Of a stretch of DNA of 64,000 nt, positions 7,943 through 62,989 are shown in pieces. Source of the stretch: Arthrobacter sp. KBS0703 (lineage in GTDB: Bacteria; Actinomycetota; Actinomycetes; Actinomycetales; Micrococcaceae); assembly GCF_002008315.2 (NCBI RefSeq), contig NZ_MVDG02000001.1:1488001-1552000 (forward strand). Reading direction: 5' to 3'. Positions within the stretch are counted from its first letter, which is position 1. Each line of letters starts with the position of its first letter. A model generated the notes under the pieces. It saw nothing but the letters and a program-made list of their open reading frames with translations, was not told the origin of the DNA and did no database searches. The position numbers and the translations under genes were made by a program.

Positions 7943-8409
7943 GGGAAAGCAAAAAGGCCCCCATTTGGGAGCCATGTGATAACCTGCGTCTCTAGAGCCG
8001 GAATATCGTTCCTCAGGTTATCACATGAGGTAAAACAGACGTCTCTCACAAATTCAGACGATCGACCGTATCCGGTCGTTCAAACGTTCGGGAACCTACC
8101 GCCGGTAGGGTGACAAAACGGCCCTACATCCCAATACTGGCGCGGATTTTGCATCCCACTTGACCCCCACTCGACCAAAACGACCTGGGAGGGGACACCT
8201 ATATGGAAGGGAAAGTGTATTAACTAGGAAGGGAGGGCCCTCTAGGAGAAGAGAACAAGGGGCCCCTTATATATATCTCTATTTCTGGTCGTTTAAGTAG
8301 AGTAGTAGTAGTAGGGGCCCTATATTCCCCGGTATTCCGCGGATTTCCCACTCGACCAACTGGTCGTTTCGTGGTCGATCGGTGGGAGTGGCCGGTAGAG
8401 CGGCGAATT
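7943..8409 (+). repeat. R1 repeat, copy a (~467 bp, non-coding)
   Basis: Nearly identical to 37191-37658 in the same orientation and related to 24574-24998 inverted. Inside are an inverted repeat TGTGATAACCT...AGGTTATCACA whose loop holds TCTCTAGAG and the small palindrome GGAATATCGTTCC; a CCTACCGCCGGTAGG palindrome; several CGACCA/TGGTCG half-sites, including CGACCAACTGGTCG near the right end; an AT-rich run TTATATATATCTC; and an AGT microsatellite. The edges are sharp at gggaaagc on the left and cggcgaatt on the right. The function is unknown. Origin or centromere iterons, a shared promoter/operator or a non-autonomous mobile element are the main options. Confidence 0.9.
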
Positions 8410-8466
8410 CATCCCCGAACGGATCAAATTCGGCCGCCGGCGCCGTTTGGGACCCTGGCCGCACAC

Positions 8467-8880
8467 ATGATGAGCATGACCACATCACAGAACCGGCAGC
8501 CCAAGGGGATCACCACCGGCGGGCAGTTCGCTCCCGACGCCCACGCCGAGTCGACCCTCCTTCTTGACCCTGCCACCCGCGACGTCATCCTCTCCCCCGG
8601 CGACGGCGACACCTTCCCGGAGTTCGCTGACGGGGACGTCATCGAGACCCTGAACGTGAGCCGCTCCGATGACGGGTCCGGCTACTGGATCTCCCCGGCC
8701 AAGATTCAAAGGTCGTCCTCCGGCTGCCCGCACGCGGCTCTCAGATGGCATCGGCCACAGGCATACGAACTGCAGCCGCCGTCTTTGAGGCCTTCGTGCC
8801 GAGCGGTGAGAGACGCGGAATTGCAATCCCTGAATTACCCGATAGGCTGAGAGCACTTAACTACCCTGAGCGGGACTGGA
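8467..8880 (+). pseudogene. QPKG/GGQFA-type small protein, degenerate copy 1
   Basis: The N-terminus (NRQPKGITTGGQFAPDAHAE, then LLDPATRDVILSPGDGDTFPEFADGDVIE) closely matches the gene at 38936. ATGs at 8467, 8470 and 8476 are all possible. After GSGYWISPAKI the frame drifts, and sequence like the other copy's C-terminus reappears in another frame (AVFEAFVPSG..., then LNYPERDW), so the copy carries at least one frameshift. The N-terminal NRQPKG-x-x-GGQF signature is common in Arthrobacter accessory proteins of unknown function. It lies directly right of R1 copy a and its tail runs into a tandem repeat. Confidence 0.6.
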
Positions 8881-22784: not shown

Positions 22785-23177
22785 TCAAGGACCGCACGGC
22801 CGGGTCCCGTCCGCTGCCAGGGCGGCAGGCGGTGCGGTCAGGTCAGTGACCGGGAGATCGGTCTTGGCACGGAGCAGCTCCGCGGTAGCCCAGTCGCCGG
22901 TAAACACCTGTGCCGGCTTTTCGCCGGTGCGCTTGGCGATCCGGGCGACGGCCTGAGTGATCTGGGCAGCCAGTTCCCGGTTGGAGGGGTTGTTCGGTTC
23001 GCCCTTGGCGGGGCCGGAAACGATGAAGTCCCTGCCGCCGACAAGAGTGTGCACCGCCCAGCGGCACAGGTTCGGCTGGCGATCCACCAGGACGGCCACC
23101 CCGTGGCGTTCGCTCACTGCCTTCAGGGCCGGGACGAACCGGGCCGTCGGCGGCACCGGCATCGGAACGGCGGTCAC
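22785..23177 (-). CDS. conserved-looking protein of unknown function
   Basis: A 130-residue product with no recognised domain; it contains RHGVAVLVDRQPNLCRWAVHTLVGGRDFIVSGPAKGEPNNPSNRELAAQI and AQVFTGDWATAELLRAKT. Its ATG overlaps the stop of the upstream gene by 4 bp, so the two are translationally coupled. It is the last gene of the operon that begins at 24510. Confidence 0.6.
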   Translation of the reverse strand: MTAVPMPVPPTARFVPALKAVSERHGVAVLVDRQPNLCRWAVHTLVGGRDFIVSGPAKGEPNNPSNRELAAQITQAVARIAKRTGEKPAQVFTGDWATAELLRAKTDLPVTDLTAPPAALAADGTRPCGP

Positions 23178-23937
23178 CGGACACCGCCTGCGATGTCTTC
23201 AAGGGTGATCGGCTTCAGGCTGGACTGGATGCCTGCCTGGTGTTCGGGGATAGAGGCGTGGAAAGCCATCAGCTCCGAGGGGCTCGTGAACTCCTGGCTG
23301 TTGTGCAGCTCGTGGATGGCGTGGTAGATCCGCTGCTCGGTGGTGGGCATGGCGGCGAAGACGTCGGCGGCGCGGTTGATCAGATCGGCGTCCGGGTAGG
23401 TGGAGCCGACTTCGATGGTGAACATGCCCTTGGGCTCCAGCGGGTTGGCGCCGCGCAGGACCCTGGTCCAGGTCGCTGCCCGGTGCGCCCATTCGGCGGC
23501 GAGACGCCGGTGGGCCGGGGCTGGTCGACGTCTTCCTCTTTCCAGTACGGGTAGTAGTCCCCGAGCTCCATTTCGTCCAGCTCCTGCGCGAAGGCTTGCT
23601 GCTTGGGGAACACGAGGGCGTACACCTCGCCTGTTTCGGGGTCGTCGGTGACGGCGACCTTGATCATGTTCGGGGCGCAGCTGTGTTCGCCGGAGAGGAT
23701 CTGCCCGACGTGGACGGTCTGGGCCTGGACGGCGTCGAAGATGACCGACTCCGGCCGGGGTGTCCCGGCCAGGTCGGCGGCATCCAGGGCCTTGGCGGCG
23801 AACTCGGCGATCTGTTCGATTTCGATCCGGTCCCGGATCGGTTCCATCGTTTCGCGCAGCCGGGCCGCCAGGTCCAGCAGGTCAGTGCCGGGGTTCAGGC
23901 GGTAGCCGTGCGGGACGTTCAGGGTCAGGTCAGTCAT
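23174..23937 (-). pseudogene. unknown-function gene split by one frameshift
   Basis: The N-terminal 160 residues (MTDLTLNVPHGYRLNPGTDL ... LGDYYPYWKEEDVDQPRP) run in one frame from 23937. The frame for the rest (WAHRAATWTRVLRGANPLEPKGMFTIEVGSTYPDADL ... LEDIAGGVR) is shifted by one base near 23515. Joined, they give about 255 residues of even coding character. The start overlaps the upstream gene by 8 bp and the end overlaps the downstream gene by 4 bp, so the operon structure is intact. The frameshift may be an assembly error. The function is not recognised. Confidence 0.6.
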
Positions 23938-24510
23938 TGTCCTTGACCTCCACCAGCTTGGCCCACTCGGGCACGTTGTCGATCCAGTGCTGGGACCGGA
24001 CGTTGACCAGCAGGACGATCACCGGAACGGACGGGCGCTCAGCGGGCCAGCCGGTTTCACCGTCGGTGGCAATCACGATGGCCGAAGGCTTCTTGGGCAG
24101 GGACAGGGCGTGCTCGATGGCTTCGCACATGTCGGTGCCGCCTCGTCCGGCGATTTCCGTGACCGAGTCCTTGCCGTTGAACTTCACGGACTGGTGGACG
24201 ATCGTGTCGACATCCGCAACGACCAGGTCGTCGCCCCTGATGTTCAGCTTCCGGGCAATGCCGATGACTTCGTTCGGTCAGGAGCTCGGCGAGCTTGTCC
24301 GGGGAGAGATCCATGGCGGGAGCGTTCAGCGGGTGATACTTGAGTCCCTTGCCGCGGGAGTAGATCATCCCGGTGGCCGGAAGACCGAGGCCGGGAAAGT
24401 CTGAACGGTCGCCGGGGCGTCCGTCGGCCGTGGCCTTTTGCGCGGGCATCGGCACGGTAAGCGGGGAGGATGTCCTTGGGGGACGTGGGGGCGATTGCAG
24501 TGGCTGTCAT
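23930..24510 (-). pseudogene. DUF2201/VWA-like metallopeptidase-family remnant
   Basis: The start at 24510 has CATACT 4 nt upstream. Joined over two frameshifts (near 24440 and 24270) the product reads MTATAIAPTSPKDILPAYR, then DFPGLGLPATGMIYSRGKGLKYHPL, then IARKLNIRGDDLVVADVDTIVHQ, then AGRGGTDMCEAIEHALSLPKKPSAIVIATDGETGWP. The last part is typical of the VWA-like C-terminus of DUF2201 proteins (GGTDM, TDGxTxWP). The DxSxS metal motif is not visible, and the zinc-peptidase N-terminus is absent, so the copy is shortened as well as frameshifted. It starts 64 bp from the edge of R1 copy c. Confidence 0.55.
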
Positions 24511-24573
24511 GCTCAGTATGTGTACGGCGCCGGCCGCTGCGCTCACCGGATCAAGGCCCTGCTCTCCCCTGGT

Positions 24574-24998
24574 GCCGCTCTGCCGGCCACTCCCACCGAA
24601 CGACCAGAAAACGACCACTTGGTCGAGTGGGGAAATCCGGGGAATATAGGGCCCCTACTACTCTACTTAAACGACCTTAAAAGAGAGATATATATAATGG
24701 CTGCCTTGTTCTCTCTCTAATGGGCACCCTCCTTTCCTAGTTAATACACTTCTTCTTCCATAGAGGGCCTATCCTCCGCGGTCGTTTTGGTCGAGTGAGG
24801 GCCCTGCGGGGTTCAAGATCTGCGCCAGCGTTGGGATGCGAGGCCATTTGGCCACCCTACCGGCGGTAGGTTGCCGGGCGATTAAGGGACCGAATGTGGT
24901 GGAGTGGCTGCTTGACACCCCCGGTGAGAGACGTCCGTTTTAGGCCTCGTGATAACCCGAGGAACGATATTCCGGCTCTAGAGACGATGGTTATCACG
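24574..24998 (-). repeat. R1 repeat, copy c (inverted, diverged)
   Basis: The reverse complement matches R1 copies a and b with scattered changes and small gaps. The CGTCTCTAGAGCCGGAATAT core with its GTGATAACC/GGTTATCAC arms, the CCTACCGCCGGTAGG palindrome, the CGACCA sites and the AT-rich run are kept. The AGT microsatellite is shorter. As with the other copies, the CGACCA-rich end points to a leaderless gene start (24510, minus strand). Confidence 0.85.
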
Positions 24999-34235: not shown

Positions 34236-34913
34236 TTAGAGGTCGTCCTCGGTGATGGCGAACTCGTCCTGGGCGACCAGGACTGCGTACTCCTTGATCT
34301 TGCGGACGTAGGCCCGGGCGGTGGAGCGGGACACATCCAAGGCATCGGCGATCTCATCGACCGTGGCGATCCTCGGTTCATGGTCTTCGCTGTACAGGCC
34401 CGAAAGCCACAACTCAGCGGCCTTCCCCAGCCGCTCGTTGTAGGCGCTGGTGCGTTCCACGATCAGCTGGATGAACCGCGGGCCCTCGACCGGGTGCAGG
34501 ACGAAGTCGGTGTCGATCGGCTCGGAGTAATCATGGTCGGCGATGTCATCCTGTGCCCGGCTGACCCGGAGGTCCTCCACGGTGGCGATGACACCCTGTT
34601 TGACCGGGTTGGACCGCTTCTCCCACATCTTCGCGTTGTGGGTGTCCACGATCTCCTGGTCTGAGGGTTCGCGGCCCATTTCCTTGCGGATCTCGTCCCT
34701 GGTGGCGTCGAGGACACGCTTGCGCCGCAGCGCGGAGGTCATCTCCGCCCTCGGCGCGCCTTCTTTATCGATGTAGTCGCGGACGGCGGCACGGGCCTGG
34801 ACGCGGAGCATTCCTTCCCAGTTTTCGATGCCGTCGAGCAGCTCGTCGTCTTCGAATTCCTCGGTGAGCATCTTCAGCGCGGTCATGGACACGATGGACG
34901 CGAAGTCCCCCAA
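34236..34913 (-). pseudogene. sigma-70-like factor lacking its N-terminus
   Basis: The frame enters from upstream without a proper start; TTG 34913 is the first candidate. The product has VQARAAVRDYIDKEG...VLDATRDEIRKEMGREPSDQEIVD, like sigma region 3, and a C-terminal helix-turn-helix (ATVDEIADALDVSRSTARAYVRKIKEY), like region 4. The region-2 core-binding helix is not seen, and the sequence is interrupted near 34950 where it meets the decayed copy of the 25131 gene. It could be a truncated plasmid sigma or whiB-type regulator; activity is doubtful without region 2. Confidence 0.5.
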
Positions 34914-37190: not shown

Positions 37191-37658
37191 GGGAAAGCAA
37201 CATGGCCCCCATTTGGGAGCCATGTGATAACCATCGTCTCTAGAGCCGGAATATCGTTCCTCAGGTTATCACATGAGGTAAAACAGACGTCTCTCACAAA
37301 TACAACCGATCGACCGTATCCGGTCGTTCAAACGTTCGGGAACCTACCGCCGGTAGGGTGACAAAACGGCCCTGCATCCCAATACTGGCGCGGATTTTGC
37401 CACCGGCTTGACCCCCACTCGACCAAAACGACCTGGGAGGAGACACCTATATGGAAGGGAAAGTGTATTAACTAGGAAGGGAGGGCCCTCTAGGAGAAGA
37501 GAACAAGGGGCCCCCTTATATATATCTCTATTTCTGGTCGTTTAAGTAGAGTAGTAGTAGTAGGGGCCCTATATTTCCCGGTATTCCGCGGATTTCCCAC
37601 TCGACCAGGTGGTCGTTTCATGGTCGATCGGTGGGAGTGGCCGGTAGAGCGGCGAATT
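37191..37658 (+). repeat. R1 repeat, copy b
   Basis: Almost identical to copy a (7943-8409) over 468 bp with a few substitutions and single-base length changes. All palindromes, the CGACCA sites and the AT-rich run are kept. Beyond both edges the sequences diverge at once. The EcsC gene starts 128 bp to the right. Confidence 0.92.
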
Positions 37659-38935: not shown

Positions 38936-39377
38936 ATGTCGGACATGATGACATCACCGAACCGGCAGCCCAAGGGACCATCGCCGGGCGGACAGTTTGC
39001 CACCGACCTGCAGGCCGAACCGGTCCTGCTTCTTGACTCTTCCCGGCGCGAGCTCATCCTCTCCCCCGGCGCCGCCGACACGTTTCCGGAACTGGCCGAC
39101 GGAGACGTCATTGAGGCCGTCAACGTGAGCCTGCTCCGACAACGGGGTCCGGCTACTGGATCTCCCGGCCGAAACGGAGAACATCAAAGACCTCATCACC
39201 GACTCCGATTCCGGCTACGGCCACACTCTGGACTCTTGTCTTGAGACGAACGGCGCAGTCATCGAGGAGTTCAAGGCACCGAATGCGCCGTCAGGGAGCT
39301 CGGTCTCTCAACTAGCTTTCCCATCCGTCTCTCAGCTAGGCTACTTCTACAAGACCTACCCGAGCGGGACTGGATAA
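38936..39377 (+). pseudogene. QPKG/GGQFA-type small protein, degenerate copy 2
   Basis: Starts SDMMTSPNRQPKGPSPGGQF and stays in frame to VIEAVNV. Three single-base changes relative to copy 1 (an extra T and an extra G near 39130-39150, a missing C near 39160) shift the frame. In the corrected frame the protein continues as ENIKDLITDSDSGYGHTLDSCLETNGAVIEEFKAPNAPSG ... GYFYKTYPSGTG and stops at 39377, inside the first tandem-repeat unit. The intact ancestor would be about 145 residues. The tandem repeat therefore grew from the 3' end of this gene. Confidence 0.65.
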
Positions 39378-39818
39378 CAGGGACTCCAGCCTCCGTAACG
39401 GACCCCGCAGCCATAGGCCTCACCACACACCTACCCGAGCGGGACTGGACAGAACCAGCCCGCAACGGACCCCACAGCCATAGGCCTCACCACACACCTA
39501 CCCGAGCGGGACTGGACAGAACCAGCCCGCAACGGACCCCACAGCCATAGGCCTCACCACACACCTACCCGAGCGGGACTGGACAGAACCAGCCCGCAAC
39601 GGACCCCACAGCCATAGGCCTCACCACACACCTACCCGAGCGGGACTGGACAGAACCAGCCCGCAACGGACCCCACAGCCATAGGCCTCACCACACACCT
39701 ACCCGAGCGGGACTGGACAGAACCAGCCCGCAACGGACCCCACAGCCATAGGCCTCACCACACACCTACCCGAGCGGGACTGGACAGAACCAGCCCGCAA
39801 CGGACCCCACAGCCATAC
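39356..39818 (+). repeat. 67-bp tandem repeat array, seven units
   Basis: One variant 75-bp unit (39356) is followed by five identical 67-bp units (39431, 39498, 39565, 39632, 39699) and a truncated last unit (39766-39818). Each has CTACCCGAGCGGGACTGGA, then AACCAGCCCGCAACGGACC, then CAGCCATAGGCCTCACC. The CCCGAGCGGG core is an inverted repeat. There are no spacers, so this is not CRISPR. Identity between units means recent expansion by slippage or unequal exchange. Confidence 0.95.
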
Positions 39819-39976
39819 GGCCATCCTGATGCGTCGCGTAGCCGATCTATCTGGCTCCGGACGCAAATCTACTCGCGATGCAATGCAGTGGGCCCGGCGC
39901 CGCCCGCTGCATTTGCGGCTAGGCGCGCCGTGTGCCTTTCCGCAGGCTGCCCGCAACGCTCCGTAGCATTGAGGTC

Positions 39977-62668: not shown

Positions 62669-62989
62669 ATGGCAATTAGAAGAATCATCGTTCTTGAAGA
62701 CGACATCGACGGGTCGGCAGCCGAAGAAACCGTGCGGTTTGCCATAGATGGCAATTCCTATGAAATTGATCTCAACTCCGCTCATGCCGAGGAACTGCGC
62801 GCAACCATTAACCGGTATACGTCAGCAGGCCGCAGGACGGCAGGACCGGCGGGAAAGACCCGCAGGCCAACCTCCGGAAGAAGCCGGTCCGCGCAGATCC
62901 GGGCCTGGGCCCAGGCGCAAGGCCTGAGCGTGAACAGCCGCGGAGCCATCAACCGGGAAATCACCGCGAAATACGAGGCAGCCCACTAG
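62669..62989 (+). CDS. lsr2: Lsr2 family nucleoid-associated silencer
   Basis: Leaderless start with perfect TAGAAT 6 nt before ATG. The N-terminal dimerisation part (RRIIVLEDDIDGSAAEETVRFAIDGNSYEIDLNSAHAEELRATI) and the C-terminal DNA-binding part (RSAQIRAWAQAQGLSVNSRGAINREITAKYEAAH) are typical, over 106 residues. The usual RGR minor-groove hook reads NSRG here. Lsr2 coats AT-rich foreign DNA and silences it, so it may control transferred genes of this window. Confidence 0.92.
   Translation: MAIRRIIVLEDDIDGSAAEETVRFAIDGNSYEIDLNSAHAEELRATINRYTSAGRRTAGPAGKTRRPTSGRSRSAQIRAWAQAQGLSVNSRGAINREITAKYEAAH

Follow-up and report, generated by a model that had tools for sequence, protein, structure and literature searches.

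R1, a repeat dispersed over Micrococcaceae megaplasmids: a candidate iteron-type origin element with apparent fossil copies in an Arthrobacter chromosome

Introduction

Bacterial replicons are normally taken to be single-origin, and several spaced origins per replicon are a feature of archaeal multi-origin replicons and of phage T4. R1, the subject of this study, is a noncoding repeat of 230-470 bp found in a 64,000-nucleotide stretch of DNA from Arthrobacter sp. KBS0703 (contig NZ_MVDG02000001.1, positions 1,488,001 to 1,552,000; 'the window' below is this whole stretch) and on a family of large Micrococcaceae plasmids, where it likewise provides several spaced origin-like sites, but on a bacterial plasmid and with firing that is hypothetical. 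Three groups of described systems come closest: 1) the staphylococcal pathogenicity island (SaPI) origin/Rep and staphylococcal cassette chromosome (SCC) Cch/Cch2 modules, in which origin-like DNA with short repeats lies directly downstream of an initiator helicase gene and, at the Cch2 site, inverted repeats are able to form hairpins (PMC7581432); 2) the dispersed centromeres of pMF1, N15, RK2 and pSM19035, where several repeat-type sites are spread over one plasmid (PMC3235114); and 3) the DnaA-box/DnaA-trio arrangement of oriC (PMC8287927).

In our estimate there is about an even chance that R1 is an iteron-type origin element, the putative binding and loading site of a Cch/SaPI-Rep-like initiator, present in four or five dispersed copies. 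With the SaPI/Cch modules (PMC7581432) R1 shares an initiator helicase of the same fold and the placement, short repeats and hairpins listed above; it differs in its 4-5 dispersed copies per replicon against one origin, in residing on a plasmid of 375-440 kb, in an extra GTGATAACC dyad module and in binding that is putative. Because the single origin of those modules is not matched, R1 may be said to 'work like' them, as a variant and not a plain member. The dispersed centromeres (PMC3235114) resemble R1 in their multiple sites; the R1 plasmids differ in having no ParB (PF02195), in the AT-rich hairpin core of R1 and in its near quarter-circle spacing. Likeness to the DnaA-trio (PMC8287927) was judged by triplets alone: in the pACHL01, pYJN5 and pB2242 groups TAG triplets adjoin a GC-rich stretch and an AT run, and two Curtobacterium plasmids have a shorter triplet run beside GGGCCC, but since triplets are absent from the two zg plasmids (pA453 and pZ1110) and the order varies between groups, membership is suggestive only. 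Searches of the open-licence literature found almost nothing on this megaplasmid family (pACHL01 came up in two papers, pYJN5-1 in none), and no title on R1 was listed for multiple origins, for repeats of Micrococcaceae megaplasmids or for repeats with even spacing.

A repeat shared by a megaplasmid family

An earlier sequence-only reading of the window had proposed searching the repeat against Micrococcaceae plasmids and genomes, and that search returned four or five copies on each of five complete plasmids and four in a draft sixth. Against 72,556 plasmid records, R1 matches only pACHL01 (of Pseudarthrobacter chlorophenolicus) and pYJN5-1 at 1e-5; a limit of 10 adds pA453 (NZ_CP099467) and pZ1110 (NZ_CP104273) at E 2e-4, with pB2242 (NZ_CP061722; E 2) standing among chance-level matches. 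Whole-record searches locate four copies each in pACHL01 (7967+, 131373+, 222164-, 335056+), pYJN5-1 (1+, 85747+, 202997+, 336912-), pA453 (123594-, 167654-, 279846-, 369515+) and pZ1110 (115867-, 164534-, 291138-, 393384+), and an nhmmer profile search finds five in pB2242, two of which are detected by a model of the R1 core (23 copies, 110 positions); for pZ1110 and pB2242 the sequence was covered to base 400,000. These five plasmids, of 375-440 kb, have 103 genes in common by reciprocal best hit to pACHL01. The sixth set was found by the core model on two contigs of draft genome G117.

Site A lies between a 1050-amino-acid (aa) gene and a PD-(D/E)XK gene. Sites B, C and D each precede a gene: at B, SecG/SecY-like genes come after it, at C, VWA and RNase H genes do, and at D the gene has no assigned family. 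G117 has all four; among the six plasmids together, A and B are occupied in every one, D in five (with a copy nearby in pB2242) and C in four, while site E is confined to the two zg plasmids and site F to pB2242. Neighbouring copies are 91-123 kb apart in pACHL01 and 86-134 kb apart in pYJN5, about a quarter-circle, and tests of spacing evenness against random intergenic sites gave P values of 0.0025, 0.0062, 0.053, 0.038 and 0.0058 in the five plasmids, which are not to be multiplied because the plasmids have sites in common.

It was also proposed from the window that R1 is a non-autonomous mobile element, and sharp edges, several near-identical copies and the gain or loss of one or two sites between plasmids are what such an element might leave. 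The copies, however, number only 4-5 and stand at mostly orthologous sites, and these conserved positions argue against a transposon, whose positions would vary; target duplications are unreadable because the flanks are too diverged. The repeat is also rare: the core model matches at 0.001 in 7/395 family genomes, a count that takes in the window's genome and two weak cases (G086 and G342), under strict filters and with nine scored candidates per genome among those listed (one earlier genome scan scored at most two per genome, so that its per-genome counts are lower bounds), and 50,697 phage records contain no R1 match at 1e-5. We therefore reject the mobile element, which is scarcely credible. 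Viral contigs gave 0 exact matches to a 21-base core, and a scan of genome contigs with an 18-base pattern gave three stretches. One of these, L008, from a metagenome-assembled genome, has no plasmid protein at 1e-6 and a repeat match at chance level only (E 0.09).

Anatomy and concerted evolution of R1

The outer dyad, GTGATAACC...GGTTATCAC, is present in every pACHL01/pYJN5-type copy looked at, in one of the four copies (E) of each zg plasmid, in none of the five copies of pB2242 and in 0/3 Curtobacterium plasmids. Inward of it come half-sites, a core of 58-116 bp (AT 54-66%) and further half-sites. With half-sites and core borders set by our own patterns beforehand, half-sites flank an AT-richer core on both sides in 30/30 copies, giving R1 the multiple short repeats of an iteron region; they are of GGTCG type, or of GTTGG/CCAAC type in the zg plasmids. 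The core folds into nested hairpins closed by a GC clamp, several diverged versions having a half-site within or close to the loop, and TATATATAT is confined to R1 in all five plasmids. A structured RNA was considered and rejected: no known Rfam family matches the window at gathering thresholds, and the alignment folding z, reaching -5.8 in two sequence groups (the pB2242 group was not folded), is not taken as RNA evidence because DNA dyads give similar values.

Copies resemble their neighbours on the same plasmid. In a 30-copy tree those of pA453, pZ1110 and pB2242 cluster by plasmid with bootstrap values of 99-100, and the genes flanking them are mostly orthologous by site; mean identity is 74-96% within a plasmid against 43-74% for the same site between plasmids. 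The half-site shifted from CGACC to CCAAC type in all pA453 copies together. For pACHL01 and pYJN5 the copies intermingle in part: the C copy of pACHL01 groups with the site-C copy of the window (100), and pYJN5 B groups with G098 (51).

An initiator beside site A, and the case for an origin

In six of six plasmids R1 at site A lies directly downstream of the 1050-aa gene, whose product is predicted, from the modelled structure of a full-length homologue, to be an initiator helicase of Cch/SaPI-Rep fold. The AlphaFold alignments used 43 of 120 listed relatives and 38 of 57 found, hand-chosen, with intein-bearing long forms excluded from the first; seven of the 120 listed, about 1500 aa long, bear intein/homing-endonuclease domains (PF14528, PF05204). 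Sequence shows the element, its copy number, positions, half-sites and within-plasmid similarity, and its place downstream of the initiator gene. On the origin reading, the initiator would bind the short half-sites (GGTCG type, or GTTGG/CCAAC type in zg plasmids), open the AT-rich core and load itself there, and the spaced sites would allow quick copying or amplification of a 375-440 kb circle, possibly by a mode distinct from that of the other replication and partition (rep/par) locus described below, for instance around transfer. Of the three functions first proposed from the window, origin or partition site is the best supported, R1 being plasmid-borne, built of half-sites around an AT-richer core and adjacent to an initiator gene in 6/6 plasmids.

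Several observations weigh against an origin. Firstly, R1 has competition: a second Rep-like gene (pACHL01 194321; helix-turn-helix (HTH) hits in Pfam) is common to the five plasmids and, in the two measured, lies 2-13 kb from a ParA-like gene as read from sequence. This looks like a normal vegetative locus, and its existence means that R1 is not the only candidate origin. Secondly, no switch of strand skew occurs at each R1 in the five plasmids, so the multi-origin case finds no support from skew; the transcription-corrected curve has one broad minimum (149 kb in pACHL01, 174 kb in pYJN5, 298 kb in pB2242) and its maximum (320, 406 and 62 kb, respectively), by the usual rule the terminus side, is located 15-35 kb from site A. 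These patterns carry P values of 0.002, 0.042 and 0.001 in the same three plasmids, and 0.49 and 0.27, nothing clear, in the zg plasmids. Thirdly, the anatomy is uneven: half-site density is near the plasmid-wide background in pYJN5 B, pYJN5 C and G098, core hairpin z-scores are modest (+0.8 to -3.9 across the 24/30 copies in which our core pattern occurs), and the zg plasmids lack TAG triplets. Finally, no core match was obtained in six genomes with a distant backbone homologue or in D40, and Curtobacterium plasmid pS16 has no dispersed noncoding R1-like set; its core match is weak, and in Curtobacterium the weak match lies upstream of the helicase gene, not downstream.

Given the skew and the other rep/par locus, R1 may serve as an origin that is secondary or conditional, or may act in copy control or as a centromere, and the copies could instead be extra iteron sites for copy control, partition or regulation. 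That four or five roughly evenly spaced origins all work, with a single Cch/SaPI-Rep-like helicase firing them and gene conversion keeping them alike, is a bolder proposal, and we regard it as unlikely though worth entertaining.

The main rival is a dispersed centromere or anchoring site, at which a DNA-binding protein would occupy the half-sites and a ParA/MinD-like ATPase would move the plasmid, even spacing serving to organise a large circle. Each of the five plasmids has such an ATPase gene or its orthologue at a distance of about 6-10 kb from site A (Pfam was read for pACHL01 only), an annotated AAA family ATPase, its likely counterpart, adjoins the core site region in Curtobacterium, and a precedent exists in the dispersed centromere-like sites that PMC3235114 reports for pMF1 and cites for N15, RK2 and pSM19035. 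ParB (PF02195) was detected in 0/5 plasmids, the same search being positive in 11/14 control genomes and in the window's genome (no search was made for centromere-binding proteins of other types). In pACHL01 the ParA-like gene is separated from the initiator gene by an HTH/sigma-70-like gene (330638-331642), whose HTH and sigma-70 matches are weak and below cut-off, and a 362-aa gene (329276-330364) whose folded product resembles nothing clearly: no significant PDB match was found, sigma factors ranking first at E 0.9. Moreover, the second ParA-like gene, close to the other rep gene and in pA453 flanked by short tandem repeats that are noncoding, has the appearance of a conventional par locus, and a centromere has no need of an AT-rich hairpin core. 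The centromere is unlikely, though ahead of the other rivals.

A transfer-related site (oriT/clt-like, or a single-strand initiation site) would suit the nested hairpins and the site-A operon, whose genes include some read as transfer-type (a VirB4-like ATP-binding protein and others); several copies in mixed orientation are ill-suited to one transferred strand, and this explanation is very unlikely.

The window had further suggested that R1 is a shared cis-regulatory switch, here of four large operons (nuclease/transfer, Sec-like, VWA/RNase H and site-D). At sites A-D of pACHL01, pYJN5 and G117 the same R1 end does face the same downstream gene, about 50-80 bp from the annotated start in two annotated plasmids (our own gene calls are simple codon-score calls), but backbone synteny alone would keep these positions. 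A fixed orientation beside a gene start also breaks down elsewhere: in pA453 and pZ1110 site E is convergent, between two gene 3' ends, with the start motif of the 90-aa gene on the far side; the C operon of these two plasmids has no R1, and the divergent C genes of pA453 both retain their start motif; and copies A and D' of pB2242 are reversed with respect to the gene next to them. Such start motifs number 26-40 in each of four plasmids, against only 4-5 R1 copies. The switch is weakened by these exceptions and we hold it to be rather unlikely.

Relics in the Arthrobacter chromosome

The window is taken as chromosomal because its contig, C1, is 4.42 Mb long, and to judge from its sequence it is a decayed relic of pACHL01-like plasmids in which the R1 copies are fossils (Table 1). 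These would have arrived with integrated plasmids, and the initiator gene remaining there is cut in half. The three copies are a real repeat: those at 7943 and 37191 agree at 450/467 positions (96%, 1 gap column), and the inverted copy at 24574 agrees with the first at 334/415 (80%, 62 gap columns). 'Three-copy' describes the window and not the genome, which has a fourth, 92% identical, at C1:602134-602600 on the same contig, 0.9 Mb away.

Table 1. Plasmid-derived features of the window (R1 sub-features are given for copy 1)
Feature	Position	Strand	Remarks
R1 copy 1, site D type	7943..8409	+	right flank is the site-D gene
GTGATAACC...GGTTATCAC dyad module	7976..8024	+	from sequence and alignments
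Left half-site pair CGACCAAAACGACC	8172..8185	+	
GC-clamped AT-rich hairpin core	8259..8325	+	inner stem, half-site in loop, TAG triplets, GGGGCCC
Right half-site cluster CGACCAACTGGTCG...TGGTCG	8353..8377	+	
Plasmid-type leaderless start motif (8458-8478) and truncated site-D gene relic, QPKGITTGGQFA N-terminus	8458..8850	+	
Site-C operon relic fragments (RNase H, hypothetical, VWA-like)	22785..24187	-	73-98% identical to pACHL01
R1 copy 2, site C	24574..24998	-	between relics of the C operon and its divergent ATPase gene
N-terminal half of Cch/SaPI-Rep-like initiator, 501 aa	31928..33433	-	93% to residues 1-486 of 1050
Relic of HTH (weakly sigma-like) gene neighbouring the initiator in pACHL01	34236..34913	-	96%
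R1 copy 3, site D type	37191..37658	+	left flank is the gene preceding site D

Within the window the conserved element set first described holds: GTGATAACC/GGTTATCAC, TCTCTAGAG, GGAATATCGTTCC, CCTACCGCCGGTAGG and TATATATAT occur once in every copy and are absent from the rest, and CGACCA/TGGTCG occurs 5, 5 and 4 times per copy against 73 in the entire window. Further afield CCTACCGCCGGTAGG is poorly kept in the more distant plasmids, and the dyad is reduced as described above. Substitutions between the 7943 and 24574 copies do spare the named elements (1/94 within them, 80/321 outside), a contrast that is partly circular because these elements had been picked as shared ones. The CGACCA end leads to a leaderless-type start, as claimed, at 7943 and 24574 (GCCGCACACATGATGAGCATG and GCCGTACACATACTGAGCATG); at 37191 it faces a 415-aa reading frame without a match in the five plasmids.

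Plasmid pieces adjoin each copy (24574 has the C operon next to it, 7943 is followed by the D gene and 37191 is preceded by the gene that comes before D) with more on both sides, and a second set surrounds the 602134 copy; a backbone FtsK-like marker gene has no match at 1e-60 in the window's genome. The left flank of the 37191 copy ends ...LREWKDWEAALYPLLEMAAA, its counterpart being pACHL01 222834-223544. Since both have site-D flanks, the 7943 and 37191 copies are both assigned to site D, 602134 being a third, and the pair may derive from tandem or rearranged plasmid relics. An R1 x R1 crossover may have been the route of integration; two tandem relics would account for the flanks equally well.

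Other features were noted. A 67-bp tandem array occupies 39326-39928 of the window (registered 201-nt copies are 64-99% identical), and the 106-aa product of 62669-62989 has 45% identity to the Lsr2-type core protein of the plasmids. At C1:4097456 of genome G246, on a chromosome-size contig with plasmid-like genes around, there is the GTGATAACC dyad half of R1 only, likely another fossil.

The start motif, GCCGYACACATRN4-7ATG, occurs 30, 26, 40 and 28 times in four plasmids (0-1 in the reversed control), 41 times in G320, whose plasmid accounts for 40, not at all in G246 and 6 times in the window's genome, of which two are in the window (8458-8478 and 24508-24528) and four at 0.57-0.62 Mb of C1. 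The motif appears to mark a class of leaderless promoters specific to the plasmids, which may have a sigma factor of their own. On each plasmid 18-31 predicted proteins, including one read as DNA ligase (pACHL01 303213), share an N-terminal tag resembling RQPKGIPxGGQFAxxxHAE, which also occurs in the window from about 8476 onward.

Implications

Four or five near-identical, spaced origin-like elements accompanied by their own initiator helicase make this plasmid family a testable case of bacterial multi-origin replication. Should R1 prove to be a centromere, it would represent a large partition system with many evenly spaced sites and no match to ParB. In both cases R1 marks a megaplasmid family and its chromosomal fossils.
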